This document shows, one piece after another, positions 34,688-51,629 of a stretch of 64,000 bases of DNA. The translations under genes and the position numbers were made by a program. The notes under the pieces were generated by a model that had not been told where the DNA came from, did no database searches, and was given only the letters and a program-made list of their open reading frames with translations. Source of the DNA: Anaerolineae bacterium (GTDB lineage Bacteria; Chloroflexota; Anaerolineae; Promineifilales; Promineifilaceae); NCBI GenBank assembly GCA_023954475.1, contig JAMLHW010000012.1, forward strand, positions 1 through 64,000. The letters are read 5' to 3'. Each line of letters starts with the position of its first letter. Positions within the stretch are counted from its first letter, which is position 1.

Positions 34688-37432
34688 TTATGCCAACAAA
34701 TCCAGCTCTTTTGCTTTGGTAATCGCCTGTGTGCGGCTGTTCACCCCTAATTTACCGTAGAGATTTTTAGTGTGATAATGCACGGTGTTCACACTCACAA
34801 AAAGGGAAGCGGCGATTTCCTTGTTTTTTAATCCGGTGGCAATGAGAGATAAAATTTCCATCTCTCGTTTTGTGAGCGGATCTATAAGGGATTGGGCAGG
34901 GGCTGGAGACGTTTCTGTCTCGATATTGTGCCCCTCATCTGCAAAGACAGCGAGCAGATCTTCACAATAGGACGGCATGATGCCGCGAACGGCCGTTTCC
35001 GACAAAAGCTTCGCCATCGGCAGCCCTTCATCAACAAAGATGCGAACATAATTTTCTGGTTGGGCCAGCGTGAGTGCTTGTGTCAGTGGACGGAGAGCCG
35101 AGGTAATATCGTTTTGGGCTTCCTTAGCCAGGGCTTGCAAAATCAAGATTTTGATGACGCTTGCTGTTCTTTTTTCTACTTCGGCCAGTTGCAACAGACG
35201 GTCTAACAACTGCACCGTCTGCTGAATGTCATCAGCATCATGAGAATTTCGATGCTGAGCAATGCGTAGCCTGGCCAGCGTCAGGTAGTCAAACTCATGT
35301 AAATAACTAGGCTCATCATCTGTGGAGAAGCCTTGCTTATTGACCCAAGTTTGTGCTTTGTCTAATTGTCCTTGCTTTATCCACACGTGGGCCTTGATAG
35401 CGGCCAACGGCCGCATCTCACTCAGGTGAACTTGCTCAAACCAAGGGTCGGCATCATCAAGGTGGACGAGTGCCTCATCAAACGCTCCTTGACTCACCTT
35501 TCTATCTGCCAAAGCCAGCCTGCTTCGATACTGGTAGGTAGAGTTTGAAGCCTGTTTGCTCAAGGCATCACTCTGTTGCCGATACTCGGCGGCCGTTTTT
35601 GACTCCCCCTGCTGGCGGTGTATTTCGCTCAGGCTCAACAGCAGGTTGGCCGTCCCCCGCACGTTTAAGTCATCTTGAGCATGTACAACAAGCTGTAACG
35701 CTTGCTCACACGTTTGCTTGGCATCATGTAGACGACCTTGCACCATTTGTATATCGGCCAGCAGCGATTTCATGCTAATGGCGGCAATAAGATTGCCACT
35801 ACCATAAGAACTGGTGAAAGAATTGCTGAAGGTTTCGCAAGCAGATAACAACGCGCCATTGGCGAAGTAACTAATGCCTAGTATTGGTTCGGCGAGGGCG
35901 CGACCAAGGTGATCATCTTCGGGCAAGAGATCGAGCGCCTGCCTTGCGTGTCTGATCGCGCCAACCGTATCGTCCGCCACAAGCGCGGCGACGGCACGAG
36001 CCGAGGCGATGGAGACGGGCAGCCGCTTAAATTTCTCTTCATCGACAACAACCATCCCCAACGCCTCTTGTTCTGCCTCAGAGCGTTTGAGCCACTGTTC
36101 AGCCTCTTGCAGACGCCGCTCACAGGCATCCCGTTCGCTACGAAAGATTAGATGAGCCCAGGCATAACTGACAATGAGTACTGGCCTCAGGCGAATAACT
36201 GAATCCGGCAGGACATCAAGCGATTGCCACCAAGGATCTGATCGGTGGGTGTATATGATGCTCCATGCCAGCTCCATATGGTGGGCGGCCCGCTCAAAAT
36301 CGTTGGCTGCCAGGGCATGGCGAATGGCATCATTCGAACGGCCGTTTGCTGCATACCAATCGCTCGCACGCTGGTGTAATGGCGTTCCCAAATCTGGTTG
36401 CTCCTGAGCCAGTCGCTGCCGCAGCAAATCGGCAAAGAGATGATGATAGCGATACCAGCGCCGCTCGTTGTCCAGCGGCACGAGGAACAGGTTGGCGCGA
36501 TCCAGTGATTCTAACATTTCCTGGCCATCGTCGTCGCCGGTCAGGGCATCGCACAAAGAACCGGTGAGTTGGGTGAGCACGGCCGTTTTCAACAAAAATT
36601 CCTGCACATGTTCCGGCTGCTGGTGCAGCACCTCTTCCAGCAAATAATCAAGTACAAAGCGGTGGCTGCCGGTAAAGGATTGGACGAACCCTGACACATC
36701 CGCCTGGCCGCGCATGGATAAAGCGGCCATTTGCAGCCCGGCGACCCAGCCTTCGGTGCGGGCTTCCAGGGCGGCAATCTGGTCTTCGGTCAGGTCCAGC
36801 CCCATTACCTTCCGCAGGAAAACGGCGGTTTCCGCCACCGTAAAGCGCAAATCTGCCGCCCGCAGTTCCGTGAGCAAGCCGCGCACGCGCAGCCGCGCCA
36901 GCGGCAGGTTGGGGTCCTCGCGCGAGGTGATCACCAGATGCAGCTGTGGCGGCAGATTATCCAGGAGGAAGGTCACCGCCTCGTCAATCGGTCGCGAATC
37001 AACGGCGTGGTAATCATCCAGCACCAACATGAGCGCATCCGGCTGTTGGGCAATATCGTTGAGTAAGGTTGTCAATACGCTGGACACTGGCAGCGGCGAC
37101 GCTTGCAGCAACGGTAGCGCCGACGCGCCAATATACGGATCAACACGTTGCAAAGCGGCGATGACGTAAGACAGGAACTGGGCCAACTCGCTGTCGTTTT
37201 CGTCCAGCGACAGCCAGGCGATTTGTGCGGGGCTTGGGGCAGTACTTTCTGTTTGCAAGGCATCAAGCCAACTGCTGACCAATGTTGTTTTGCCGAAACC
37301 AGCGGGAGCGGAGATGAGCGTTAGCTTGCCTGCCAGCCCCTGATTGAGTGTTTTGATCAGGCGCGGACGGGTAACGAGAGACGGCCGTAATCGAGGCAGA
37401 TACAGTTTGGTTTGTAACAAGTCGCCGGACAT
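34688..37432 (-). CDS. LuxR-family MalT-like (LAL) transcriptional regulator 2
   Basis: A 914-residue regulator with [12 protein letters not shown] (Walker A near residue 40), L-M-L-V-L-D-D-Y-H-A-V (Walker B), a long TPR region and a C-terminal LuxR helix-turn-helix (L-T-K-R-E-M-E-I-L-S-L-I-A-T-G-L-K-N-K-E-I). Its N-terminal 300 residues are strikingly similar to LAL regulator 3, 26 bp upstream, so they are tandem duplicates. TATAAT sits 6 nt before the ATG. AACGGCCGTT words occur at 34988 and 36337, plus one across the stop codon. Confidence 0.9.
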   Translation of the reverse strand: MSGDLLQTKLYLPRLRPSLVTRPRLIKTLNQGLAGKLTLISAPAGFGKTTLVSSWLDALQTESTAPSPAQIAWLSLDENDSELAQFLSYVIAALQRVDPYIGASALPLLQASPLPVSSVLTTLLNDIAQQPDALMLVLDDYHAVDSRPIDEAVTFLLDNLPPQLHLVITSREDPNLPLARLRVRGLLTELRAADLRFTVAETAVFLRKVMGLDLTEDQIAALEARTEGWVAGLQMAALSMRGQADVSGFVQSFTGSHRFVLDYLLEEVLHQQPEHVQEFLLKTAVLTQLTGSLCDALTGDDDGQEMLESLDRANLFLVPLDNERRWYRYHHLFADLLRQRLAQEQPDLGTPLHQRASDWYAANGRSNDAIRHALAANDFERAAHHMELAWSIIYTHRSDPWWQSLDVLPDSVIRLRPVLIVSYAWAHLIFRSERDACERRLQEAEQWLKRSEAEQEALGMVVVDEEKFKRLPVSIASARAVAALVADDTVGAIRHARQALDLLPEDDHLGRALAEPILGISYFANGALLSACETFSNSFTSSYGSGNLIAAISMKSLLADIQMVQGRLHDAKQTCEQALQLVVHAQDDLNVRGTANLLLSLSEIHRQQGESKTAAEYRQQSDALSKQASNSTYQYRSRLALADRKVSQGAFDEALVHLDDADPWFEQVHLSEMRPLAAIKAHVWIKQGQLDKAQTWVNKQGFSTDDEPSYLHEFDYLTLARLRIAQHRNSHDADDIQQTVQLLDRLLQLAEVEKRTASVIKILILQALAKEAQNDITSALRPLTQALTLAQPENYVRIFVDEGLPMAKLLSETAVRGIMPSYCEDLLAVFADEGHNIETETSPAPAQSLIDPLTKREMEILSLIATGLKNKEIAASLFVSVNTVHYHTKNLYGKLGVNSRTQAITKAKELDLLA

Positions 37433-37458: not shown

Positions 37459-40089
37459 TTAGAGTAAGTTGAGTTCTTCCGCGCGGGAAACGGCCGTTCG
37501 CCGACTATTCACCCCCAGCTTCGAATAAATATTTTTCGTATGCGTGCGCAGCGTGTTCAGGGAAATCATCAGCTCGCGGGCAATTTCGGGGCCGGTGAGA
37601 TTGGTGGTAAGCAGCCTGAGTACCTCTAGTTCGCGTTCCGACAGGGGATCAAAGAGAGGTTGAGCAGTGGGTGGAGAATCGGCCGAATCCCCAAATGCCG
37701 CAAACACCTGCTGCGCAAACAGCGATGCCGCGCCTCCCCTGACCATCTCCCGCAGCAGCGCCGCCATCGGTGCTCCTTCATCCACAAACAAGCGCAGCAG
37801 GCCGCCCGGCTCAGCCAGTGCCAACGCCTCCTCGACCGTTTGCATCGCCATCTCGCCTTCACCGGCAGCCTGATGGGCTAACGCTTGCAGAAGCAACACC
37901 TTGAGCCGCATGTCGGCCCATTCGTTTGCTTCTGCCTGCTGCCGCATCGGTTCCAATGCCGCTAACGCTGCGGAGGGATCACCTTGAGCCTGCTTCACAC
38001 GTGCCTCGCTGAGGGGTATGTCTTGCGATTTGGCTAACCGAGCGGCAGCGGCGAGATTGCCCTGCTGCAGATGGATTTGGATGCGAACGGCCGTTATCGC
38101 CCCCATCTGATGATCAAAATGCTTCTGCTGTACGAACTGCTCCGCTTCGGCCAACGTCGTGAATGCAGCCGCCGCATTGCCCTGCGCCAGTTGCACGCGG
38201 GCCAGCAGAATACCACAGGTGGCAGGCGTATCCACATTTTCCAACTGCCGCGCCAGTTCGAGACCCTGCTGTGCATACCGTTCCGCAGCACCTAAATCAT
38301 TCCATTGGTAATGGATGCGGGCCAGTCCCACACATGCTTCGCATGCTGCCGGCCATGGCGGATCACCGACCAAGTATAGGATGCGTTGGAAGGTTTCCGC
38401 TGCCTGATGAAGTTGATTTTCGGTTTCCTGAATCTGTCCCATGCAGGTCATGGCGGCGATTTCAGTCATGATATTGCCCGATTTCTGGCTTTGGGCGATC
38501 GTTTCGGCATAAGCCTCCTTCGCCGCCGCCCGTTTCCCCTGAACCTGATAGGCATAGCCCAGCGTCCAGGTGGTGGTAGTGCGCATGGGCGCGTTGTCGG
38601 GGTACAGCAGCTCCAGAGCACGACGAGATTGCGTGATGATCTTTTCGGCCTCATTTTTTACAACGCCCAACATGGCCCGGTTTGCCGCAATCTGGCCAAG
38701 CAGATCGTTTGTTTTGTCGTCTGGTGCCATGTCTTGCAGTGCCGTTTCTGCCGCTTGCAGGATTTCTTCGATGTTATCGTGCAGGCGACCGGTCAGGGTG
38801 AGTACGGAGGCGTACGTCACCCACAAGGCAGGCCTGGCCTTAAATTCGCTTTCCGGCAGCGATTCCATCCAGTGCCGTACCGGAATCGCCTCGCCCCGAA
38901 AATAGAGCGGCAACCCATCCCCTTCGATTAGACGCAGCGCACAGTCTACGTCATTGGCGGCTGTCGCGTGATAAAACGCTTCCAGTTCAAACCCATTGAC
39001 TTCGTACCATTCACTGGCCCGGATGTGCAGCGTATTGACAATACTCTCTGTGGCACTCTCCTGTAATCGCTGTCGCAGCAGCTCTGCAAAAAGATGATGA
39101 TACCGGTACCAATGTCGCTCGTTGTCCAGCGGCACGAGGAACAGGTTAGCGCGATCCAGTAATTCCAGAATCTCTCGACTATTGGCTTCTCCGGTCAGAA
39201 CATCACAGAGGGAACCGGTGAGTTGGTTGAGAACGGCCGTTTTTAGTAAAAACGCCTGCACATCATCCGGCTGCTGATGCAGCACCTCTTCCAACAGGTA
39301 GTCGAGCACAAAACGATGGCTGCCGGTGAAGGATTGGATGAAACCGGACACATCGTCTTGGCCACGCATGGATAGCGGCCCTTGCAAAGCCAGGGCGGCC
39401 ATTTGCAACCCGGCAATCCAGCCTTCGGTGCGGGATTCCAGCGCGGCGATTTGGTCTTCTGTCAGGTTCAGTCCCATCGCTTGCTGCAGGAAATCGGCCG
39501 ATTCCGCCACCGTAAAACGCAAATCTGCCGCCCGCAACTCCGTTAGCAGATCGCGCACGCGGAGCCGCGCCAGCGGCAGGTTAGGATCCTCGCGGGTGGT
39601 CATGACCAGATGCAACTGCGGCGGCATGTGGTCGAGCAGAAAGGTGAGCGCCCGATCTACTGGCTGCGACTCCACCACATGGTAATCATCCAAAACCAGG
39701 GCGAATTCTTGGGAAGCAGCAGCGATTTCGTTGAGCAAAGAGGTGAGGAGTGGGTCTGTGGCGGGTTGCTGCGCACCTTGCAAGATTTCCAAAACGCGCT
39801 GCCCGATGTTGGGCACAACCGTCTGCAGAGCGGCCACAAAGTAGGTGAGAAAGTGGCTGAGATCGCCATCCCGTTCATCTAGAGAGACCCAGGCAAACGG
39901 CCGTCCCCCACCATCAATCCACTCGCTAACCAATGTTGTTTTACCAAAGCCGGCTGGAGCAGAGATCAGAGTCAGTTTCCGTTGCAGGTGCAAACCTTGA
40001 TTGAGTTTTTGGATGAGATGTGGGCGCGGGACGAGAGAAGGCCGTAATCGTGGTATATATAATTTGGTTTGCAGCAGCTCTCCAGGCAT
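37459..40089 (-). CDS. LuxR-family MalT-like (LAL) transcriptional regulator 3
   Basis: An 876-residue regulator: STAND ATPase with [12 protein letters not shown], Walker B in [12 protein letters not shown]-like middle, and LuxR helix-turn-helix ([21 protein letters not shown]). The phrase E-E-V-L-H-Q-Q-P and flanks are shared with LAL regulator 2. I choose ATG 40089 over 40098 because TATAAT (40097-40102) overlaps the latter. It contains both AACGGCCGTT (three copies) and host-like ATCGGCCGAA/ATCGGCCGAT variants. Confidence 0.88.
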
Positions 40090-40096
40090 GGAACCC

Positions 40097-40102
40097 ATTA
40101 TA
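40097..40102 (-). promoter_or_regulatory. Candidate -10 box for a leaderless LAL regulator 3 mRNA
   Basis: Reverse strand TATAAT, 7 nt (GGGTTCC), then ATG 40089, without a Shine-Dalgarno sequence. The same layout as at LAL regulators 1 and 2. Confidence 0.55.
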
Positions 40103-40144: not shown

Positions 40145-40228
40145 CTGTAACAAAAGAAGCCTAGCTTTTTCGTCTGGTGCAAACGCTACTCATAGCAAAA
40201 GCTAGGCTTCTGAAAATTTCTGTTACAG
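40145..40228. repeat. Large intergenic inverted repeat at the island edge
   Basis: AGAAGCCTAGCTTTT (40155-40169) is repeated inverted at 40197-40211, with outer arms CTGTAACA (40145-40152) and TGTTACAG (40221-40228) displaced by an 8-nt insertion on one side. It fills half of the gap between the GH17-like gene end and the LAL regulator start. It could be a MITE-like element or a strong terminator for the glycan operon. Confidence 0.65.
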
Positions 40229-40266: not shown

Positions 40267-41229
40267 TTATAAATCCTTCCCCAAAATCGTTTGAATTACC
40301 AGTTTCGGTGTACGATCTACAGTAAAAAGCCCCCAATGTTTTTCGGGTTCGTTTGGGTCAGGCGATCCTTTCCAGGGTTCGTCGAAAGCTTCGAACACGA
40401 AGGTCAAAATACCTTCTTCCTCTGTCCATGCCATCAGTTGCTGGTAGTATTGGGCTTGTAATGTTTCAGATGCATTCCAAGGCTCAATGCCCCGTCCATT
40501 AGATGCAGTTGGCCAACCCGCCTCAGTAATTACCACTGGTTTATTGGGATAATGTTGTACAACTGCATTGAAGTTTTGTTTGGTATATTCCAGTGCATCT
40601 TCCAGCGTGCGATATTCCCATACCGGATATGTATGCATCGAAATAAAATCTAGCTCAGCAGCTAGAGGTGCCAGTCTATATAGCCATGGCACATAGTTCT
40701 CGCAAAACGTAACCGGCTGTGAAACGGCTTCGTTGACCCGGCGAGCATATGCAACCAGACTGTCGACAGGAACCATGTGGTCGGTCCATTCGACACTTGC
40801 TTCGTTGCCTATTGAAACCGCAAAAACGATATCGGAGTAGAGATTGGCTAACGCAATCAAATGGTCGATTTGATGCCTGTTTGCCAGTCGGTTTGCGGTA
40901 AGCGTTTCTTCACTGAACTCGGCTCCCCATGGACAATTGGGGTTGCTCACCTCAGCGCCCATATCTACGCCCAACAATACCTTGAAGTCTAACCCCGTAT
41001 CGCGGATCACTTTCAGCGTCGTGTCGGCATGTGGGCCACTATCGTACAGTCTGATGAACGACCAATTTTGCGCCAGGATCAGGAGGTCTTCTTTTATTTC
41101 GGCATAGCTTGGGAAAATCCCCTGCCGGGGATCCTGTCCCTCACGGTAGCCAGAATAGCAAATTGCATTGTCGCGGCTTCGACCAAGGAATTGATCGAGC
41201 CGCGCCTGTTTCTCTGATAGCTTAGACAT
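40267..41229 (-). CDS. GH17-like beta-glucanase, second copy (cytoplasmic)
   Basis: A 320-residue TIM-barrel protein of the GH17 type without a signal peptide. The acid/base glutamate is in V-S-I-G-N-E-A-S near residue 175, and the nucleophile in V-V-I-T-E-A-G-W-P-T near 255; W-S-F-I-R-L-Y-D near 57 is also typical. GH17 enzymes cut beta-1,3 (and 1,3-1,4) glucans. Being intracellular, it probably acts on imported oligosaccharides. It overlaps the first copy by 8 bp and is the last gene of the locus. Confidence 0.8.
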   Translation of the reverse strand: MSKLSEKQARLDQFLGRSRDNAICYSGYREGQDPRQGIFPSYAEIKEDLLILAQNWSFIRLYDSGPHADTTLKVIRDTGLDFKVLLGVDMGAEVSNPNCPWGAEFSEETLTANRLANRHQIDHLIALANLYSDIVFAVSIGNEASVEWTDHMVPVDSLVAYARRVNEAVSQPVTFCENYVPWLYRLAPLAAELDFISMHTYPVWEYRTLEDALEYTKQNFNAVVQHYPNKPVVITEAGWPTASNGRGIEPWNASETLQAQYYQQLMAWTEEEGILTFVFEAFDEPWKGSPDPNEPEKHWGLFTVDRTPKLVIQTILGKDL

Positions 41230-42109
41230 ATTTCATGTTCCCGTGTTTGTCCCACAGCCCCCAGAAAGCACCCACGGCGCCTTCATGCTCTATCTTCCAG
41301 ACCTCGTCAAAAGAAGAGAAGTAAAATATTTCGATTCCTTCTTCTTCAGCCCATTGGTAAGCGTTGACGAAATAACGGACTGCGTTTTCAAAGGAGGGGA
41401 CAGACCCCCATTCGGCCGAACCGAGATTAGGCCAACCGGTCTCGCTAATAATTACGCGCTTGCCCTTCGCTGCAATAGTCGCCTGCCGGTACATTTCCTT
41501 CATATAAACGAGTGCATGCTCGGCGGGACAGCCTTCCCAGAACGGATAGCAGTTGGCGAATATCACCTCACAAGCGTCGCTGACACGCGGATAGTCAACA
41601 AATTTGAAATAGGCGTCCACATAGCCCGTCGGAACGTCCGGCGCGCCCGCTTTCGCCCGGTTGATGTAGTCAATCAGTTGATCCTCCGACATTTCATCCC
41701 GCAGCAGAACCTCATTACCGACCGCCAACAGATTGGCATAACCCGCTCTGGCGACCTCAAGGGCATTGTTGAGTTCCAATGCATTGTGATCGTGATTGTC
41801 GTCGAGCCAGACGCCCACCATCGTTTTGAGCCCAAGCTCTGTTGCAACTCGAGGGATCAGTTCATTGCCCTCTGTACAAGAAAAAGTGCGCACCCACTCA
41901 ACATAAGGCTGAATGATGCTGAGACGCTCCCTGATTTGAGCCTCCGTGATTTGTGTGCCGGGACCTTGTCCCTCGATATACGGGCTAAAACAAATTCCGT
42001 GAATTTTCTGCTCTAAGATGTTGGCCACAAGCGCTTTCAAATCATCGATCGATAGACTTGAAATATCTATTCCTGCCAGGGACCGTTTTCTAGAATATAA
42101 GTTGGACAC
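41222..42109 (-). CDS. GH17-like beta-glucanase, first copy (cytoplasmic)
   Basis: A 295-residue GH17-type protein with A-V-G-N-E-V-L near residue 140 and I-S-E-T-G-W-P-N near 225 as the two catalytic glutamates. There is no signal peptide. I choose GTG 42109 because GGAG lies 6 nt upstream; the longest frame would begin at a TTG (42193) inside a palindromic repeat, which is implausible. It shares its plan with the second copy but is clearly diverged, suggesting different chain-length or linkage preferences. Confidence 0.78.
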   Translation of the reverse strand: MSNLYSRKRSLAGIDISSLSIDDLKALVANILEQKIHGICFSPYIEGQGPGTQITEAQIRERLSIIQPYVEWVRTFSCTEGNELIPRVATELGLKTMVGVWLDDNHDHNALELNNALEVARAGYANLLAVGNEVLLRDEMSEDQLIDYINRAKAGAPDVPTGYVDAYFKFVDYPRVSDACEVIFANCYPFWEGCPAEHALVYMKEMYRQATIAAKGKRVIISETGWPNLGSAEWGSVPSFENAVRYFVNAYQWAEEEGIEIFYFSSFDEVWKIEHEGAVGAFWGLWDKHGNMKYV

Positions 42110-42155
42110 AGTTTTCTCCACTCTGTTTCGTATCTTCCCGAATTTTCGGGTAATC

Positions 42156-42203
42156 GTAGGGCGGAATGGTATTCCGCACAGTCGGATTGACAATCCGACC
42201 TAC
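42156..42203. repeat. Dispersed palindromic element between phosphorylase and GH17 genes
   Basis: GTAGG, then GCGGAAT-GGT-ATTCCGC, ACA, GTCGGATTG-A-CAATCCGAC, then CTAC: two adjacent hairpins enclosed by complementary ends. A related unit (TCGGATTGTTAATCCG plus GTAGG) lies at 54438. REP-like; within this operon it could shape mRNA stability. Confidence 0.65.
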
Positions 42204-42253
42204 GCCTTGCCCCAGATTTTTGAGAAGATACACTCTGTTTCGTATTGATTCTG

Positions 42254-45200
42254 TTAGATAGTTACAGTGACGCGTACCTGTTTGATATGCCCGGTACGAT
42301 TCAAAATATGCTGGGTCGTCGTGTTGTCAAGACAGTTGCCCTGAATTATGACGCTGTTTTTGTACGCAAACACAATCTCAATCTGGGAATCGCTCGCAGC
42401 ATCGCGCGCAAGTTCATAGATGATTGGAACCTGGCAACAGGTAAAAGCCAGCGATCTCGGTGTCAGCATCAAGGTATGGGTTTTTCCGTCCATGGCGACA
42501 TAGTTGAAGCGCATGTTCGCCTGCAAGAATTCGTCTGCGCGCAGCATGGTTGGCTGGAAGCACAGCGCACCATTGTGTAGCTTGACGCCCAATTCTCCCC
42601 AGCGGGTCAGGATTTCTTCCTTGACCAGGCCCGTCATGCCTGGCTGGCTGGCACCGCCGCCCAGCGGTGTATGCGAGTAGGGGTCGGTTGGGAAAGCACC
42701 GTACACATCGGGTGTTTTGTTAAATCCCATCCCTGCACGGATGTCATAGTAGGCTACCGCCAATGCGTCTACCGTAGTCGCATCTGCGCCCGACTCCACG
42801 GCTTGCTGATAGCTTTCCTGCGCCGCCAGCAGCAGTTTGGAAACCATGTGCCAATAGATGCTGCCCAATCCTTCGTAGGCAAAAAAGGTGCCTGATCGGC
42901 CGGTAAACGAATTGTGATTGAATGTTTTTTCAAACAGGTCGAGGATAAAGTCGCGCTCCTCAGCAACCCAGTCGGCATAAGCCGGTTCTTGCGCCAGCGT
43001 ATCGAGTACGTCCGCAACATTTTTGGCGTTGCGGAAGCGGCCGTTAAAGTGAAAAACGCCCGCGTCATCACACGTCAGTAAACGGCTGTCACGAGCTGCC
43101 ATGAGGGCTTTGACTAGACCGGAATCAGCGACCTGTTCGGCGGCGACGTTGTTCTTTTGGAGGAATCCTGGCAGCTTGCGGTTGGGATACAGCATGTATG
43201 AATGCTGGTCGGCGCGGTACAAATCGCTGTGGCGCATACTGTGCAGCAATGTCAATGCGTCTTTTGATGAGAGGGTTCCGGATGATAGATAGGCTACCTG
43301 CCCCTCCAGCATCAGGTAGAGATGCTCAATGGACACGCCCTGTCCGTTTAGGGTCAAAATATTGTACGTGTGTCCCATGCCGTCGGGACGGCGGTTGGCC
43401 TGCAGCGTATGGTCGATGAAGGATTGTGCCAGTGTCAGGAACTCGTGTAAATCTTCGGCCGAAAGTTCAATTTGTCCAGCAGCGATGCCGTGCGGGTAGA
43501 TGGTTGCGCGATAGTCAGTAATGGCCATCCCCAACGCATCCATGAAGGCCCGTCTATCTGCTGGCGTGAAGCCATTGTCTAACTGTGGCTGGTACGTGGC
43601 AAAGGTCGCCTGGACAGAACTAAAGAGAGCGGCTAGCGTTGAATTGATCGCAAATGACCGCTCTATGTTGCTTCGCTGCGCCAACTGATCCTGCCAGAAT
43701 GCGATGAAGCGGCGTAAATAGGCCGCAGTCACGACCGACAGCCCTTTGCCGACCAATGCGTTGTTGGCGTCATTCCACTCCGGTCGCTGGGTGTTCATCC
43801 AGATGCCACCATCGGGCACAAGATTAGTCAGCTTGGCCAACAACAGTACCAGCAATTTTTCAACCATCGTAACGTGAACCACGTTGCCGTTGCTATCGCG
43901 CAATAGCCGGCCATCCGTGCCCATATGCGACACGGCTTCTTCGGTCGCTTCCTCGCTTTCCCAGTCAAAATCGATGGTGTTGTACCAATCTTTCAACATT
44001 TCCTGATAGGAACGCAGTCGATAGGGGACGTTGGCATAAGCGAAAATCGGCCGATTCCAGAGCTGAGCCAGCGCGCCGGGTTGCACCTTTTCGGCAATCT
44101 CCAGCAGCTTCTGCAAGTAAATTATTTGGTGATCGCTCCAATAACCGATATTTGACCACGGGTTATCCGGCTCCGGGATCTCCCACTCAATGCCGTCACG
44201 CGTCACGCGATACGGATTGTAACCGTCTGGCGTTGTCGCATTCAGGAACTTGGCAATGATGCCTTCAATGTAAGCCGGAAAGGCCAGCGCCAAAGGCTCC
44301 CAGTTCTGAAAGATGTCGCGCCAGTTGCCTTGATAGTCCAGATTGGGTGAGCCATCTGCTTTTTTGAGGTTGATCGAGAAATGATTCCAGGGACGGCTGG
44401 GATCGCCGTGTCGTCGACTGAAGATCAGCGGCAAAAACTCATAGCACAGCCGCATTGTGTTTGGATCGCCCGTTTCAGCCGCGCGCGCGTATAGATCGCT
44501 GATATCCAGCGTAGCAGGCAAGCTTTTGAACCATGCGATCTGTTCTTGCAGCACGACGCGATTGCGTATGCCGACAAATTCCAACAGCGCATCGCGCTCA
44601 ACGTGATATCCATCGGCAAAAATGCCGCCACGCATGATATTGAACAACACGTTGGCGTAATGATGGACGATTGTCGATTCCTGTGCTGATTGCTGCAGTC
44701 CGTCTGCTGCTGCGACGAGGCGAATCAATTCGGCCGAATTGCGCTGAATGTCTACCTCAAGTTCATCTACGATGTCTGCTTGATCGCGTTTCATCATGCG
44801 TAGTAATCGCGTAATTGCGACCCGATCCCGATTCACGTCCGCGACGATGTGCCATTCTTTCTGTTCACCCGACGTCAGATCAAAGCGCGCTGTCACAAGA
44901 TAGGCTCCGGCTTTGCCGCAGATGTCATGCTCTGTTGTAAGCACACGACCGGTGCGAAATGCATCGATTTGTCGGGTGCTGAGGAGATACGTGTTCACGT
45001 CTAGTCCCACTTGCCAAACCACCGTTGTCTGGAGCGACTCGCTCGGCTCGGCCTGGTCGGTCAGCGTTGCACTGAGGGTGAAAATACCCAAACCTGAATT
45101 GGGTTCCAACTCATTGCGCTTGTATGCATTCAGCAAATTGCTGCTGACCCGTTGAGTTGCGGACAATACACCGTACGGCAGCACATTTTGCAGGCCGTCC

Positions 45201-45739
45201 AGCAAATCAATCCGGCAAGGGGTATCACCATCATTTTGTAACCAGACTGTTCTGACAAAGCCAAAGCGTTTACTGGTGCGCCACGCCTGGCGCAATGTCA
45301 GCCCTAAATCATGGTTAATTGCTTCGAAAACGAGCTTGTCACCGTAAATGTTTTTGTAGAGATTGCGCTCTACATCGTAGATGCCTGCATACCGGTCTGA
45401 AAACGGCTCCCAAAGTTGGCTAAGATCATTGCGCAACGCGTGAATAATGGTTTTGCTGCCAGTGGATTCGCGTTGTGCGTCGAGCTTGTCTTCTGTCTGA
45501 TAAGGAAAAAGCGCGGAATCCGGGTTCACGCGCCCGGCAGTTAGACCACCGTCACTGGTGATAAACAGCCAGTGGTCAGCACCGCCGACCACGCTCATGA
45601 AAAATGACGGTATCTGGTCGCTGTGGGAGATGCGATAATACGTTTCGCCCAGCAGTTGCACAAAGCTTCCCGTTGTTGGCCGTTGCATATCTTTAATTTT
45701 GGTTTGACCCACCAGGCTTTCAAATTGTGGCTCATTCAT
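42254..45739 (-). CDS. Large glycoside phosphorylase-like protein (GH94/GH149/GH161 type)
   Basis: An 1161-residue cytoplasmic protein. An N-terminal beta-sandwich-like region is followed by an alpha-barrel region with G-N-W-R-D-I-F-Q-N-W near residue 476 and P-E-W-N-D-A-N-N-A-L-V-G near 650. The latter resembles the W-N-D motif around the catalytic acid of GH94-type phosphorylases (clan GH-Q). Its length suits GH149/GH161 beta-1,3-glucan phosphorylases rather than the shorter GH94, and two GH17-like genes follow. It would release glucose-1-phosphate from oligosaccharides. Family placement is inference. ATG 45739 has AAGGAAC upstream; longer frames do not. Confidence 0.6.
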   Translation of the reverse strand: MNEPQFESLVGQTKIKDMQRPTTGSFVQLLGETYYRISHSDQIPSFFMSVVGGADHWLFITSDGGLTAGRVNPDSALFPYQTEDKLDAQRESTGSKTIIHALRNDLSQLWEPFSDRYAGIYDVERNLYKNIYGDKLVFEAINHDLGLTLRQAWRTSKRFGFVRTVWLQNDGDTPCRIDLLDGLQNVLPYGVLSATQRVSSNLLNAYKRNELEPNSGLGIFTLSATLTDQAEPSESLQTTVVWQVGLDVNTYLLSTRQIDAFRTGRVLTTEHDICGKAGAYLVTARFDLTSGEQKEWHIVADVNRDRVAITRLLRMMKRDQADIVDELEVDIQRNSAELIRLVAAADGLQQSAQESTIVHHYANVLFNIMRGGIFADGYHVERDALLEFVGIRNRVVLQEQIAWFKSLPATLDISDLYARAAETGDPNTMRLCYEFLPLIFSRRHGDPSRPWNHFSINLKKADGSPNLDYQGNWRDIFQNWEPLALAFPAYIEGIIAKFLNATTPDGYNPYRVTRDGIEWEIPEPDNPWSNIGYWSDHQIIYLQKLLEIAEKVQPGALAQLWNRPIFAYANVPYRLRSYQEMLKDWYNTIDFDWESEEATEEAVSHMGTDGRLLRDSNGNVVHVTMVEKLLVLLLAKLTNLVPDGGIWMNTQRPEWNDANNALVGKGLSVVTAAYLRRFIAFWQDQLAQRSNIERSFAINSTLAALFSSVQATFATYQPQLDNGFTPADRRAFMDALGMAITDYRATIYPHGIAAGQIELSAEDLHEFLTLAQSFIDHTLQANRRPDGMGHTYNILTLNGQGVSIEHLYLMLEGQVAYLSSGTLSSKDALTLLHSMRHSDLYRADQHSYMLYPNRKLPGFLQKNNVAAEQVADSGLVKALMAARDSRLLTCDDAGVFHFNGRFRNAKNVADVLDTLAQEPAYADWVAEERDFILDLFEKTFNHNSFTGRSGTFFAYEGLGSIYWHMVSKLLLAAQESYQQAVESGADATTVDALAVAYYDIRAGMGFNKTPDVYGAFPTDPYSHTPLGGGASQPGMTGLVKEEILTRWGELGVKLHNGALCFQPTMLRADEFLQANMRFNYVAMDGKTHTLMLTPRSLAFTCCQVPIIYELARDAASDSQIEIVFAYKNSVIIQGNCLDNTTTQHILNRTGHIKQVRVTVTI

Positions 45740-46299
45740 CAGGTTCTGTTCCTTTTCATTGAATCTTTGGTGAATGTGGCTTGAAGACGCGAGCATCAAC
45801 ACCCTGCCATCGTTCTGGACACATTGGCGCAATAACCTGTATATTTAGTAGTCTGATCATTGACTTGAGCTAGTTCAGAAACCAAATTTTAGCAGAAAAC
45901 TCAGTTTCTCTGCCTCAACAACATGTTTTGGTCGAAGCAGAAGGCGTGAGAGACAATTCGGGGTTCTGTTCGCTAACCGGAACCCCGAAACTGAAGCAAG
46001 CGCTTATCGATGCCGTCGGCTTTTGCACGCGTTGGTGCCGCTGCTGAAGTTCGACCGGTTCGATGAGGTCGGCGACTGATTGATTACTTAACCGGACCAT
46101 TCAGTGGATGATCGGACAGCAGAATAAAGGCCACCGAATACAGAGCCAAAATCATAGGTACGCACAGCATCGGGTGTGATGCTATGCGTTGCAACCTATG
46201 CCATCGGACTATATTTTTCGGCCGAATTCATACATGCCAGCAATTCAGCAACACGCCGACACGCTTTGCAATAGATACTTGTTCCGCTGTGATCGCCAA
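45740..46299. other. 560-bp gap with two hairpins, no gene seen
   Basis: Holds hairpin TTCGGGGTTC/GAACCCCGAA (45957-45989, 13-nt loop), a nested bulged hairpin (46153-46200, outer arms CATAGGT/ACCTATG), and a TTCGGCCGAA palindrome (46217-46226). Reverse and forward short frames here lack ribosome sites and recognisable content. The hairpins lie after the ABC importer genes and before the phosphorylase, where they could end or stabilise the transporter transcript. Confidence 0.55.
46153..46200 (-). terminator. Bulged hairpin downstream of the ABC importer genes
   Basis: Nested arms CATAGGT/ACCTATG, ACGCA/TGCGT and GCATC/GATGC give a 48-nt stem-loop about 100 bp past the last permease stop. 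No T-run follows, so an mRNA-stabilising role is as likely as termination. Confidence 0.45.
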
Positions 46300-47373
46300 C
46301 TATTTCTCCACACCGGTGATAACGACACCTTGAATGAATGCCCTCTGTGCAAAGAAGAACACAATCAGTGGAATGATCGACGCTGTCAACGAAGCAGCCT
46401 GAATCAGATTGTCCTGACCCTCATACAATCCCTGAAAGCCATTTAGACCCACCGTAATCGGATACAAATCCGGATTACCGGCGAGATAAATTAGCGGCCC
46501 GAAGAAATCATTCCAGGCAAAGAAGAAGTGGAAAAGCGTAACGGCCAATAGCGCCGGTCTGGCTTGCGGCAGAATAATCGACCAGAAAATCCGGAAGTGG
46601 CCAGCGCCATCGATCATGGCCGCCTCGTCTAGCGCTCGCGGAATGCCGAGGAAAAACTGGCGCAACAAGAAGATATTGTAGCCGTTGGCAAAAAATTGCG
46701 GGACAATTAACGGCCACCAACTACCGACCCAACCGATTCGATTGAAAAATGTATACGTTGGAACAAGCGTCACCATCGGTGGCAAGATAATCGTCGCCAT
46801 CACGACCAGGAACAAAACACTCTTATGAGGGAAATCGTAGCGCGCAAAGCCATAGGCAACCAACGCCGCCGAGCTCACAGCGCCAATCGTGCTGACTACA
46901 GCATAGAATACCGTATTGCGCAACAGTAGCGGAAAATTGATCGTGTTCCAGGCATCGACGAAATTCTGCCAGACTGGATCAAATTGCCATGCCTGCTCAA
47001 GGGTACGCCAACGTCCCTCCCAGGGGATTAACCCGGCACTGGGATCGGCGGGATCGATAAACTCGCTGGCTTCACGCCCCTTGTTGACCAATGCCCATTC
47101 GTAAGTGTTTCCATCAACAGGCACTTCGTAGACGTCATACTCACGGCCTTCGTATTCATAAACAACCGGTGATGCCGGATACCAGGGCGCACCAATCGAT
47201 GATATTTGCGCCTCAGTCTTAAGAGATGTCATTACACCATAGGCTAATGGCATCAGGAAAATCGCCAAAATGACAGCGGTGAGCGTTGTCAGCAGGACAA
47301 TATTGATGCGTTTGCGGTTCTTCGCCGAAATGCGTGGTGGTGATGGCTGTGGCGTCATTGTTGCAGTAGCCAT
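46300..47373 (-). CDS. Carbohydrate ABC transporter permease (MalG/CUT1-like)
   Basis: A 357-residue inner-membrane permease. The first helix (about 23-45) is followed by an unusually long hydrophilic insert (about 50-145, with E-Y-E-G-R-E-Y-D-V-Y-E-V) before the usual five helices. The ATPase-contacting EAA loop is D-E-A-A-M-I-D-G-A-G-H-F. This extended loop occurs in MalG/GanQ-like permeases and should face the outside. GAGGAG precedes ATG 47373, only 4 bp after the partner permease stop. Confidence 0.9.
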   Translation of the reverse strand: MATATMTPQPSPPRISAKNRKRINIVLLTTLTAVILAIFLMPLAYGVMTSLKTEAQISSIGAPWYPASPVVYEYEGREYDVYEVPVDGNTYEWALVNKGREASEFIDPADPSAGLIPWEGRWRTLEQAWQFDPVWQNFVDAWNTINFPLLLRNTVFYAVVSTIGAVSSAALVAYGFARYDFPHKSVLFLVVMATIILPPMVTLVPTYTFFNRIGWVGSWWPLIVPQFFANGYNIFLLRQFFLGIPRALDEAAMIDGAGHFRIFWSIILPQARPALLAVTLFHFFFAWNDFFGPLIYLAGNPDLYPITVGLNGFQGLYEGQDNLIQAASLTASIIPLIVFFFAQRAFIQGVVITGVEK

Positions 47374-47377
47374 GACA

Positions 47378-48358
47378 TTACTCCTCACCTGCGTAGTAGA
47401 CCCAATACCGAGCGCTACCAAACAAGACAATGGTTAGGACAAGGGATACGATGAAGATCAACCAGGCGATCACTGCACCATAGCCCATGTTGAAAAAGCG
47501 AAAAGCCTGATTGAAGAAATAGATCCCGACAAAGTTCGTTCTTCCATCGGGGAATCCACTTCCGCCATTGAGCACGAAAGGCACGAGGAAATATTGCATT
47601 AGGCCAATCGTACCTAGAACGAGATTGTAGAACAGCACAGGAGAGAGCATCGGGATCGTAATACTGATCAGCTGTCGCGTCCATCCAGCACCGTCAATTT
47701 CGGCCGCCTCATACATCTCAGTCGGAATGCTCTGCAAACCAGCCAACGTAATCATCATCGTGTTACCAACGGCCCATAAGCCAATAAACGTCAGCGTCAA
47801 GTAGATCAGATTGGGATTAGCCAGCCAGCGAATGCCGCTGGGACCCGTTGCCTGAATACCAAAAATATTCTCCAGGAGCAGATTGAACCAACCGGTCTGC
47901 TCGTTGAGTACACCTGTCCAAATCAGCACGGCCGCCACCAACGGAATCATCGTCGGCATGAAAAACATGGTGCGGAACAGCGCTTTGCCGCGCACAGCCT
48001 TCGTATTCATCAAAAGAGCTAACAAGATCGCAAAACCCAATCCAATGGGTAGCGATATGAAAGCAAACAAAAACGTTACGCCAAAGGATTGGTAGGTATT
48101 CGGATCTTCGAATAGCGCACGTTGCCAGTTTTCTAACCCAATAAATTCAGTTGCGTCGGGATTGGCCAGATTAAATCGAAACAGTGAAAAACCAAATGAA
48201 GCGACAAATGGGATCAGGTAAAAGACGATGATCCCAATTATCCAGGGACTGATAAAGAACAGGCCCCATTTGATCTGATCCCGTTCAATTCGACCCCGCT
48301 TATGTTTCTTTGGTTCGGAAACTTGAGAAGTTGCATCAGAAGTGATAGTTGCCATCAT
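47378..48358 (-). CDS. Carbohydrate ABC transporter permease (MalF/CUT1-like)
   Basis: A 326-residue permease with six membrane helices and the EAA loop Y-E-A-A-E-I-D-G-A-G-W. The N-terminus is basic and cytoplasmic (K-K-H-K-R-G-R-I-E-R). Together with the next permease it forms the membrane channel for the sugar bound by the lipoprotein. No ATPase gene is in the window; CUT1 importers often share an MsmK/MsiK-type ATPase encoded elsewhere. GGGAGG lies right before the ATG pair. Confidence 0.9.
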   Translation of the reverse strand: MMATITSDATSQVSEPKKHKRGRIERDQIKWGLFFISPWIIGIIVFYLIPFVASFGFSLFRFNLANPDATEFIGLENWQRALFEDPNTYQSFGVTFLFAFISLPIGLGFAILLALLMNTKAVRGKALFRTMFFMPTMIPLVAAVLIWTGVLNEQTGWFNLLLENIFGIQATGPSGIRWLANPNLIYLTLTFIGLWAVGNTMMITLAGLQSIPTEMYEAAEIDGAGWTRQLISITIPMLSPVLFYNLVLGTIGLMQYFLVPFVLNGGSGFPDGRTNFVGIYFFNQAFRFFNMGYGAVIAWLIFIVSLVLTIVLFGSARYWVYYAGEE

Positions 48359-48522
48359 ACCTCCCTTTCCAGTTTACGAAGTAGCTTGTTATGCCGTTGC
48401 GCTTACCGGAGAAATCGCTTGCTTGTATTGTGAAAGCAGTCCGTCCAATCAAAAGATTGGCGTTCCACAATGGGTATGTGGAACGCCTTTTCTCACTAGA
48501 ATCGGACCGAATTCAATCAGAT

Positions 48523-50052
48523 TTATTCGTTGCCGGCAGCGTCGTAGATGGCTTGCAAGTCAACTACCAACTTATCGATGTCAGCTTGAACATCACGATC
48601 GGGTTCCTGACCCAGCAACGACCAGAACGCGTTGTAGGCTTCATTGGCTTCTTGCGGGCTGGGCATGTATGCCTCATGATTGGGATTATCAGCGTACGCC
48701 ATCGAGTCGACAACGACCTGCCAATTGAGATTCTCACCATTTGGTACAGTTGTCTGGAACGTATCGAAGTAAGCATCCTGCAAGCTCAAACGAGCAGGCA
48801 TACCACCATACATCTGTGTCATTGTCTCTGCGTTTTCACCCAGGAAGTATTTGAGAACTTCCCACGCTGCATCAGGGTTGTCACCACCCTTCAATATGCC
48901 AAATGTATCAGCATGCATCTTGGCTGTCGGCTCACCGGTATACTCGTTGGCCGGCACGGCAGCCAGACCATAGTCAAAGTCGATGTTACCAACGCAGCAA
49001 CCATAGTACCAGAGGTGGGTGTGTGCCATAGCGACATTGCCCGACTCAAAACCGTTACCGGCAATGACGTCACTGGCATCGTAAATTCCATTGGGGTAGA
49101 AGACTTCGTTCCACATGCCATCGTAGAACCACTCGGCAGCATCACGCCAATGATCGGGAACCTGCGCATCACCGTTTTCGTCAACCAGCGAGCCGGGACC
49201 AAACAGGGTGGCAGCACCACGGAAGTCAGTCCACTGCTCGTAGTATCCAAACTGGACGATATTGTCAGGGTCAAAGTCAGGGCTTGTCGCGTCATTGCCA
49301 TTAGCATCAACCGTCAGTAACAAGGCAACTTCACGCATGGCGTCGATATCCCAGGGAACTTCTTCGCCGTCGACGTTGACATAGGGTGCGCCGTACTCTT
49401 GTGGCGGGTAGGGGATACCACCTTCATCAAACAGTTCGTAATTGATGGAAAGGAATGACGGGAAAATGGCAAACGGCAAACCAAGTTGTCCTTCAGCTTT
49501 GTCGACGTAGAATTCGACAAGCGCAGGATCAAAGTCAGAAAGATCATACCCTTCAGCATCGATGTATGGTTGCAGATCGACCCATGCGCCGCGGAAGAAG
49601 TCGCGACCACGGATGCCGACTGGGCCGACGATGTCTGGTGCATTACCGGCTGCAATTTGTGTGGCGAGGGTGGCAAACGCTTGATCGGCATCGACGATCT
49701 CGAGTACTAACTCGATTTCATCTTGACTGGCGTTGTAATCAGCTACTACCTGTTCTTGTGGCGCGAACATTGGCTCATCTGAACCTGCACCGAGACCAAC
49801 GTACCAGCGTACTTCTGTACGTTCACCATTGCCACTCGGCTCTGTGGCCGAATCTGAATCGTCTTCAGCCATTGCTTCATCGTCGGCCATTGCTTCATCT
49901 TCAGCCATTGCTTCATCGTCGGCTGGAGCCGCCTCTTCAGCGGTTGTCGAAGCGGGTTCTTCGGCCGATTCTTCAGTACTACTACCGCAGGCTACTAATA
50001 GCATAGCCAGAATTACAAACAAACTTACAAGAAATAAACTCGATTTCTTCAT
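48523..50052 (-). CDS. Extracellular sugar-binding lipoprotein of the ABC importer
   Basis: A 509-residue substrate-binding protein. Signal and lipobox are L-L-V-A-C (Cys 22). Residues about 24-80 are a low-complexity acidic linker with repeated D-E-A-M-A and E-D-E-A-M-A units, likely a flexible tether off the membrane. The binding domain starts near R-W-Y-V-G-L-G-A-G. ATG 50052 follows GGAGGAG; the frame further upstream lies in the operator region. Three LacI-type operators sit between this gene and lacI, and the binding protein is first in the importer operon. Confidence 0.9.
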   Translation of the reverse strand: MKKSSLFLVSLFVILAMLLVACGSSTEESAEEPASTTAEEAAPADDEAMAEDEAMADDEAMAEDDSDSATEPSGNGERTEVRWYVGLGAGSDEPMFAPQEQVVADYNASQDEIELVLEIVDADQAFATLATQIAAGNAPDIVGPVGIRGRDFFRGAWVDLQPYIDAEGYDLSDFDPALVEFYVDKAEGQLGLPFAIFPSFLSINYELFDEGGIPYPPQEYGAPYVNVDGEEVPWDIDAMREVALLLTVDANGNDATSPDFDPDNIVQFGYYEQWTDFRGAATLFGPGSLVDENGDAQVPDHWRDAAEWFYDGMWNEVFYPNGIYDASDVIAGNGFESGNVAMAHTHLWYYGCCVGNIDFDYGLAAVPANEYTGEPTAKMHADTFGILKGGDNPDAAWEVLKYFLGENAETMTQMYGGMPARLSLQDAYFDTFQTTVPNGENLNWQVVVDSMAYADNPNHEAYMPSPQEANEAYNAFWSLLGQEPDRDVQADIDKLVVDLQAIYDAAGNE

Positions 50053-50187
50053 CTTAATCTCCTCCGTTGAGATTGTGTCATTGCATAATGAGTTTTCATT
50101 TTGGAATTGGTTTGTGGTGGATATAGTTGATGTAATCAGCACCTCCCATTTGAACTGTAATTACCAGAACGTCCAAGATGTGGTTAC

Positions 50188-50199
50188 GAAGACGCTTTC
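50188..50199. promoter_or_regulatory. LacI-type operator 1
   Basis: GAAGACGCTTTC, one mismatch from a perfect inverted GAAA-NCGN-TTTC site. It lies 136 bp upstream of the binding-protein start and 43 bp from operator 2. Confidence 0.55.
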
Positions 50200-50230
50200 A
50201 TTCGTATCCTGAGTACTTTTAAGCTGAATT

Positions 50231-50242
50231 GAAAGCGTTTTC
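50231..50242. promoter_or_regulatory. LacI-type operator 2
   Basis: GAAAGCGTTTTC, the reverse complement of GAAAACGCTTTC, with a central CG as in LacI/GalR-family operators. Confidence 0.7.
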
Positions 50243-50366
50243 ATAAGTATAACATCAGATTTACCGCATGTCAATCAAAAACATGCTGAATCGCCTCATC
50301 TTAGCTGAGGAATTGGAAACAATCTAGGGCGAAATGGGGCAGCAAAATATGTTTTGACGGTTGATT

Positions 50367-50378
50367 GAAAACGCTTTC
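50367..50378. promoter_or_regulatory. LacI-type operator 3
   Basis: GAAAACGCTTTC, the exact reverse complement of operator 2 and 136 bp from it, close to 13 helical turns. It lies 229 bp before the LacI start codon. Confidence 0.7.
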
Positions 50379-50606
50379 TATGGTAATCTATTTATCAGGA
50401 TACTCGTAAAGCTTTCGGAAACGGATTTTAATTGCTTCCTGGAAACCTAATCTGGAATTAGCTACCCGGTACAAAATCAGTTTCCTGCTATGTGACGAGA
50501 AATAAATCAGACTTTATACTACAGGTGACTCGACTGGTCACGAGTCCAAACTTTTGTGCAATGCCTTTGCGAGACTTGCGTAGCTGATTTGAATACGGGT
50601 AAAACC

Positions 50607-51629
50607 ATGACAACCCAGCAAAAACACGTCACTATCCAGCATATTGCCGAACGGGCAGGGGTTTCCATTAGCACCGTCTCGCGCGTATTTAACGATAGCG
50701 CCGGCGTCAAAGAAAGTAAGCGTCAAGCAGTGATGGATGCAGCCGCGGCATTGGATTATCGGCCGAATCTGTTTGCGCAGGGTCTTGCCAGTGGACAATC
50801 CATGTCGGTCGGGGTGCTGACACAAAATTTCGGCAGTGCTTTCTATGATGGCATACTACGCGGCATTATTGCAGGGCTGGATAACAGCAATTACGCGCCG
50901 CTGTTCGCAGATGGTCGTTGGCGATTGGATATTGAAGAACGGGCATTACAGACATTACTTGATAGGCGCGTTGATGGGCTGATCTTGGTGGGTCCGCAGC
51001 AATCGGCCGATTTATTAAAACAACTCGCACAGAAGATGCCAATCGTGATCATATCCCGCATCGTGGAAGGATTTGAGAAATTCTGCCTCACTGTGGACAA
51101 TTATGATGCCGGCTATCGGGCCACCAAATATCTACTCGATCGCGGTCACCACCAAATCGCACACATCACGGGCGTGTTGTCAGAATCGAGAGTTTTGCGC
51201 GATGCTGCAGACCGCTTCGCCGGGTATCGGGACGCGCTACTCGACGTCGGTTTGGAACCCGATCCGGATTTGATCGTAGAGGGCAACTTCAGAACACAGT
51301 CTGGCCTTCTGGCAATTGAAACGTTGCTGTCGCGCGGGCGACCATTCAGCGCTCTGTTTGTCGCCAACGACCAGATGGCATCAGGTGTACGACTGGGACT
51401 GTATCGGCGTGGCATTCGTGTGCCGGACGATATAGCGTTGATCGGATTTGATGACCAACCGCATTCAGCCTATATGATCCCGCCACTGACAACCATACGA
51501 CAGCCGGCAGAAGAGATGGGCTCAATCGCAGCGGAGGCGATCTTAAACCAACTGGATGATAAGCCATTTTCGCTGCCAACCATGTCGGCCGAATTGATCA
51601 TTCGAGAGTCGGTCAAATCTATCTACTGA
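50607..51629 (+). CDS. LacI-family transcriptional regulator
   Basis: A 340-residue regulator. The N-terminal helix-turn-helix is T-I-Q-H-I-A-E-R-A-G-V-S-I-S-T-V-S-R-V-F, with the hinge Y-R-P-N-L-F-A-Q-G-L. The rest is a periplasmic-binding-protein-like sensor domain (G-V-L-T-Q-N-F, G-F-D-D-Q-P, P-P-L-T-T-I-R-Q-P). It most likely represses the divergent importer by binding the GAAAACGCTTTC sites and releases on a sugar inducer. I start at ATG 50607 where the family begins; the earlier in-frame ATG at 50556 adds a cysteine-rich leader without support. Confidence 0.92.
   Translation: MTTQQKHVTIQHIAERAGVSISTVSRVFNDSAGVKESKRQAVMDAAAALDYRPNLFAQGLASGQSMSVGVLTQNFGSAFYDGILRGIIAGLDNSNYAPLFADGRWRLDIEERALQTLLDRRVDGLILVGPQQSADLLKQLAQKMPIVIISRIVEGFEKFCLTVDNYDAGYRATKYLLDRGHHQIAHITGVLSESRVLRDAADRFAGYRDALLDVGLEPDPDLIVEGNFRTQSGLLAIETLLSRGRPFSALFVANDQMASGVRLGLYRRGIRVPDDIALIGFDDQPHSAYMIPPLTTIRQPAEEMGSIAAEAILNQLDDKPFSLPTMSAELIIRESVKSIY

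Follow-up and report, generated by a model that had tools for sequence, protein, structure and literature searches.

The window, a 64,000-nucleotide stretch of an Anaerolineae (Chloroflexota) genome, contained an operon-like run of genes that very probably handles import and the cytoplasmic steps in the use of laminarin-type β-1,3-glucan, within a regulon split over two loci. This reading was based on sequence comparisons, in which all four perfect operator sites, the only GH16 pair, and the only GH17 pair in the genome fell at two loci. The predicted substrate is most likely short chains of β-1,3-glucan, possibly algal or fungal, with callose and paramylon as other candidate sources.

As judged by their families, the products of the second locus (contig C10), two secreted GH16 proteins and a GH3 lipoprotein, would cut and trim the polymer outside the cell. 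A binding lipoprotein and two permeases would import the resulting oligosaccharides, with a solitary MalK/MsmK-like ATPase as the putative power source. In the cytoplasm, GH17b would cut longer chains internally, GH17a would trim them, and a GH149 enzyme would release glucose 1-phosphate and glucose from the chains by phosphorolysis, assuming that it acts like the characterized enzyme Pro_7066. Twin LacI proteins would bind three-operator promoters and keep both loci shut until a breakdown product released them. By standard biochemistry, phosphorolysis of this type would save ATP.

Gene content of the operon and its phosphorylase

The initial annotation of this DNA listed a LacI regulator with three operators, a binding protein and a pair of permeases, a large phosphorylase, and two GH17-like enzymes, and the window contained all of these parts where they had been placed. 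The LacI-family repressor gene (50556..51629, + strand; Pfam LacI and Peripla_BP_3; likely start, ATG at 50607) was divergent from the transport and enzyme genes. The transport genes encoded the sugar-binding lipoprotein of an ABC importer (48523..50052, - strand; Pfam SBP_bac_1; 509 aa from the ATG at 50052), a MalF/UgpA-type permease (47378..48358, - strand; Pfam BPD_transp_1 and NCBIfam), and a MalG/UgpE-type permease (46300..47430, - strand; Pfam BPD_transp_1 and NCBIfam; longest ORF, start uncertain). Read by eye in translation, the MalG-type permease appeared to have about 80 extra residues inserted between membrane segments one and two. The enzyme genes encoded the GH149 phosphorylase (42254..45739, - strand; 1,161 aa from the ATG at 45739, the length given in the initial annotation), GH17a of the FbGH17B/MlGH17B type (41222..42109, - strand; Pfam Glyco_hydro_17; 295 aa from the GTG at 42109), and GH17b with an endo-laminarinase-like fold (40267..41229, - strand; Pfam Glyco_hydro_17; 320 aa), which overlapped the end of GH17a by 8 bp. 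The start codons of GH149, GH17a, and the binding protein were picked by homologue lengths and signals; close homologues of GH17a were 294 to 296 aa long, compared to 295 aa for the GTG start.

A simple hydropathy check identified a lipoprotein signal in the binding protein (...LLVACGSS, lipobox LVAC) and no strong hydrophobic N-terminal segment in GH149, GH17a, or GH17b. The latter result supported the cytoplasmic location that had been suggested for the three enzymes. The description of the module as complete did not hold up, as the ORFs and Pfam matches showed no ABC ATPase in the cluster, the operon locus carried no secreted endoglucanase, and the polymer-cutting enzymes were found at the second locus, under the same operator. 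Directly downstream of GH17b, we observed tandem genes for two large regulators (34688-37432 and 37459-40098, - strand; 914 and 879 aa, 46% identical) that, judging by sequence, seemed to belong to the MalT/LuxR type. Near 40159-40211, an inverted repeat could be a terminator.

The large protein had no Pfam match. It scored 1,581.5 bits against the NCBIfam GH149 model NF058639 (curated cutoff, 1,150), with a full-length match that spanned profile positions 4 to 1133 of 1134, and it scored 1,151 bits against the crystallized GH149 enzyme Pro_7066 (6HQ6). The GH149 motifs described for Pro_7066 are RD (sugar phosphate), WND (catalytic Asp), and a phosphate-binding His (PMC6771811). Residues R505-D506, W686-N687-D688, E987, and H995 (numbering of the 1,192-aa ORF) were present in the window protein and invariant among eight Chloroflexota sequences. 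GH94 and GH161 were considered and rejected, since a GH161 structure and a chain named cellobiose phosphorylase scored about 51 bits, versus 1,151 bits for GH149. The initial annotation had proposed a clan GH-Q phosphorylase and had named a placement outside that clan as a refutation; the profile score of 1,581 bits and the intact catalytic motifs put the protein inside the clan and specifically in GH149. By sequence, the enzyme is clearly a GH149 β-1,3-glucan phosphorylase, and by analogy with Pro_7066, its predicted activity is phosphorolysis of β-1,3-gluco-oligosaccharides. Identities reached 66% with Chloroflexota relatives and were 44 to 50% with Bacteroidota and Vibrio members.

The spacer between the second permease gene and GH149 contained a 53-codon GH3-like stretch (46100..46255, - strand; 41% identity, one in-frame stop) that scored 34.7 bits, compared to 26.6 bits for the best of 60 shuffles. 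An intact GH3 gene was located at the corresponding position in an orthologous locus (L058), and a GH3 gene followed the same permease gene in genome G088. The stretch is probably the remnant of a GH3 β-glucosidase gene. A 102-bp MITE-like mobile repeat (42130..42231) separated GH149 from GH17a; its ends were inverted (GTATCTTC/GAAGATAC), and it was flanked by a direct repeat of 10 bp (GAAACAGAGT). The genome carried four copies of the repeat with 99 to 100% identity, and a search of the window alone showed one; shorter related pieces clustered in contigs C1 and C21.

Operators, twin LacI proteins, and the second locus

Between the divergent genes were three putative operators: O1 (GAAAACGCTTTC, 50367..50378), a perfect palindrome that was the closest of the three to lacI; O2 (GAAAGCGTTTTC, 50231..50242), also a perfect palindrome; and O3 (GAAGACGCTTTC, 50188..50199), which had one mismatch and was 43 bp away from O2. 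The earlier proposal of LacI control via three operators was supported. The perfect site TGAAARCGYTTTC occurred at four places in the 5.12-Mb genome, two at the window operon and two in contig C10, and the reversed control pattern occurred at none. When one mismatch was allowed, 68 scattered genome sites were found versus 40 for the control, and such sites carry little meaning.

The operators in contig C10 were located between a second LacI gene (G000:C10:9723-10892), whose product was 72% identical to the window LacI, and a divergent gene run (locus G000:C10:480-10892). This run encoded a GH16 lipoprotein, a 1,770-aa secreted CBM11/Calx-beta/GH16 protein, and a GH3 lipoprotein that also had a CBM9-like domain, and it included the only two GH16 genes in the genome. 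Both loci had the same three-site layout, in which an enzyme-side pair was 41 to 43 bp apart and the third site, adjoining lacI, was 126 to 136 bp further away; the outermost C10 site had two mismatches. The layout was repeated at the orthologous locus L058 (42 and 125 bp). The G088 locus had paired sites as well, with a LacI that was only 34% identical.

The palindromes, which were positioned between divergent genes and were common to functionally related loci, had the properties of a putative LacI regulon. Because the two loci had common perfect sites, the same three-site layout, and LacI proteins with a matching recognition helix (SISTVSRV) and hinge, we infer that the window operon and the C10 locus form one regulon with two repressors. 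Alternatively, each LacI might respond to its own signal, and the common operators might be no more than the trace of a recent event that duplicated the regulator together with its promoter. LacI paralogues with 72% identity and the same promoter layout are what a duplication would yield, but the matching helix and hinge and the perfect sites kept at both loci would make cross-binding hard to avoid, and the gene contents of the two loci were functionally complementary. We therefore view separate regulation of the two loci as unlikely. Many LacI-family regulators have the operator core GAAARCGYTTTC in common, and therefore another regulator could also bind it.

The GH17 pair and the substrate of the importer

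The two GH17 proteins, which were encoded by the only GH17 genes in the genome, scored 40 and 45 bits against PF00332 (cutoff, 28.2). Both had a TIM-barrel fold and two catalytic Glu residues (NE in strand 4 and E in strand 7); these residues were Glu133 and Glu223 in GH17a, and the same alignment columns were occupied in GH17b. The nearest fold to the GH17a AlphaFold model was the transferase RmBgt17A (4WTR; TM score of 0.85 by target length), and the nearest fold to the GH17b model was the endo-laminarinase FbGH17A (6FCG). Alongside these families, folds, and catalytic residues, an endo role for GH17b and an exo role for GH17a are predicted.

In the transglycosylase MlGH17B, the aglycone subsite residues Tyr136, Trp191, and Glu192 have been linked to transfer; position 136 is Met in the hydrolase FbGH17B (PMC11005184). 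Our alignment showed that neither window protein had the full set of three residues: GH17a retained Trp191 and Glu192 and had Leu136 instead of Tyr, and GH17b had Val at this position. Among 45 aligned stand-alone GH17a-type rows, 42 had Tyr and three had Leu, including window GH17a and a Vibrio fortis protein. Leu was also found in three further Chloroflexota relatives of GH17a, and Leu and Met predominated in MFS-GH17 fusions. Because GH17a has Leu136 where MlGH17B has Tyr136, it is predicted to act by hydrolysis rather than by transglycosylation.

This residue also bears on the idea that the operon serves an internal reserve, in which the GH17 pair would be glucanosyltransferases that remodel or store β-1,3/1,6-glucan and GH149 would work in either direction. 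One relative of GH17a, MlGH17B, makes β-1,6 links as a cytoplasmic transglycosylase and has a proposed storage role (PMC11005184), the GH149 reaction is reversible (PMC5827456), and the nearest fold of GH17a is, as noted above, a transferase. However, the transglycosylation-linked Tyr is replaced by Leu in GH17a, its three Chloroflexota relatives, and the Vibrio fortis protein, and the hydrolase FbGH17B likewise lacks it; moreover, the genes are in an operon-like run with an importer, and their operators are common to the locus for secreted GH16 and GH3 proteins. An internal reserve is thus an improbable function, and use of imported β-1,3-glucan chains is the reading that we prefer.

As for the power source of the importer, we found two MalK-like ATPase genes in the genome; one was part of another transporter (C12), and one was solitary (C24). 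Because the cluster had no ATPase and a solitary gene was present elsewhere, the C24 ATPase is the likely partner. A separately encoded ATPase has likewise been proposed for GH161 clusters (PMC6484121). The nearest relatives of the importer were at L058, where LacI, binding protein, permease, GH3, and GH149 genes occurred together (72 to 81% identity), and in genome G088, where the neighbors were GH3, GH16, and GH161 phosphorylase genes (55 to 61% identity); for the binding protein, the identities were 72% and 55%, respectively. Since homologous importers were paired with two different β-1,3-glucan phosphorylase families, the earlier suggestion of β-1,3-gluco-oligosaccharides as the most likely substrate gained support. 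It is quite improbable, and the least probable of the alternatives, that the importer serves another β-glucoside (mixed-linkage glucan or cello-, sophoro-, or gentio-oligosaccharides) and that a side product is what GH149 and GH17 degrade: substrates are not predictable for SBP_bac_1 family binding proteins, and GH16 includes mixed-linkage glucanases, with weak matches to 1,3-1,4-β-glycanases, but the characterized GH149 and GH17 cases considered here all act on β-1,3-glucans, and the homologous importer also accompanies GH161.

Occurrence of the GH149-GH17 pairing and comparison with known systems

The initial annotation had described GH17 as an uncommon partner of such a phosphorylase. This view had to be revised, as GH149 clusters with cytoplasmic GH17 were reported in 2018 (PMC5827456), and we found GH17 genes in the flanks of 59 of 80 GH149 loci in public genomes (41 with the GH17a type, 10 with the GH17b type, and 8 with both), although the 80 loci were best matches only, were rich in Bacteroidota, and included some contigs that ended beside GH149, such as L058. 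The pairing is uncommon only within Chloroflexota, where most GH149 loci had ABC genes with GH16 or GH3 and without GH17. PF00332 alone found GH17 in 2 of 400 Chloroflexota genomes, which is an underestimate; a protein query found GH17 in 13 of 396 genomes of the class, and the true GH17a type was found in four (the window genome and three others, with 72 to 73% identity).

The order GH149-GH17a-GH17b was found in three other Chloroflexota genomes (61 to 72% identity) and at a Bacteroidales locus (L136). A plasmid of Vibrio fortis (NZ_AP025489.1, 11992-13804) carried a GH17a-GH17b tandem that was 61.5% and 59.5% identical to the window pair, and a GH149 gene was located on the same plasmid, about 70 kb away from the tandem. 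In a GH17a tree that left out the three extra Chloroflexota copies, the window and Vibrio fortis plasmid copies were grouped with 99% SH-aLRT support on long branches, and the tree did not fix the direction or date of transfer. Resolution of the GH17b tree was too poor to name a donor phylum, and no relative was found in viral contigs. We tentatively suggest, as a possibility that is well short of probable, that GH149-GH17a-GH17b moves between genomes as a cytoplasmic cassette, whose endo and exo GH17 enzymes cut down imported chains, which may be branched, before the phosphorylase acts on them. The cassette might have joined a Chloroflexota ABC operon and made its own GH3 dispensable, leaving the relic, and the twin LacI proteins might synchronize the surface and cytoplasmic halves.

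Our findings add Chloroflexota, with an ABC importer, to the marine Bacteroidota and Proteobacteria in which GH149/GH17 laminarin systems have been described, and they point to a regulon, open to testing, that would tie surface and cytoplasmic steps together. GH17a, with its natural Leu136, is also a test case for what separates glucan transferases from hydrolases. The general picture of β-glucan use stays as before.

Pro_7066 (PDB 6HQ6/6HQ8) and EgP1 belong to the same family as the window GH149 over the full length and share its RD, WND, E, and H residues in the active site, but they come from different phyla. In Proteobacteria, type I clusters have a COG0747 ABC binding protein, two permeases, two ATPases, and a LacI or AraC regulator, and type II clusters have a TonB-dependent receptor with GH16 and a cytoplasmic GH17 (PMC5827456). 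The window operon has the ABC importer and LacI in common with type I, but its binding protein is of the SBP_bac_1 (maltose) type rather than COG0747, and ATPase genes are absent from the cluster. It has the cytoplasmic GH17 in common with type II, but on reading the ORFs beside the cluster, none looked like a TonB receptor, and GH16 is at another locus. The window operon mixes features of the two types and has no apparent outer-membrane receptor.

The laminarin PULs of Formosa sp. Hel1_33_131 and Muricauda contain GH149, GH16, both GH17 types, and β-glucosidases (PMC6246565, PMC13188888), all of which are shared with the window system. These PULs rely on SusCD/TonB, with an MFS-GH17 fusion (FbGH17B) and an endo GH17 anchored in the membrane, whereas both window GH17 proteins look soluble and cytoplasmic and are accompanied by an ABC importer. 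Gram-positive GH161 clusters (PMC6484121) likewise combine an ABC importer that lacks an ATPase with a cytoplasmic β-1,3-glucan phosphorylase, but GH161 replaces GH149, and the partners are GH1/GH3/GH30 or GH94 rather than GH17. Against this background, the window system is an ordinary, well-formed β-1,3-glucan utilization system of a known kind in a less studied phylum.
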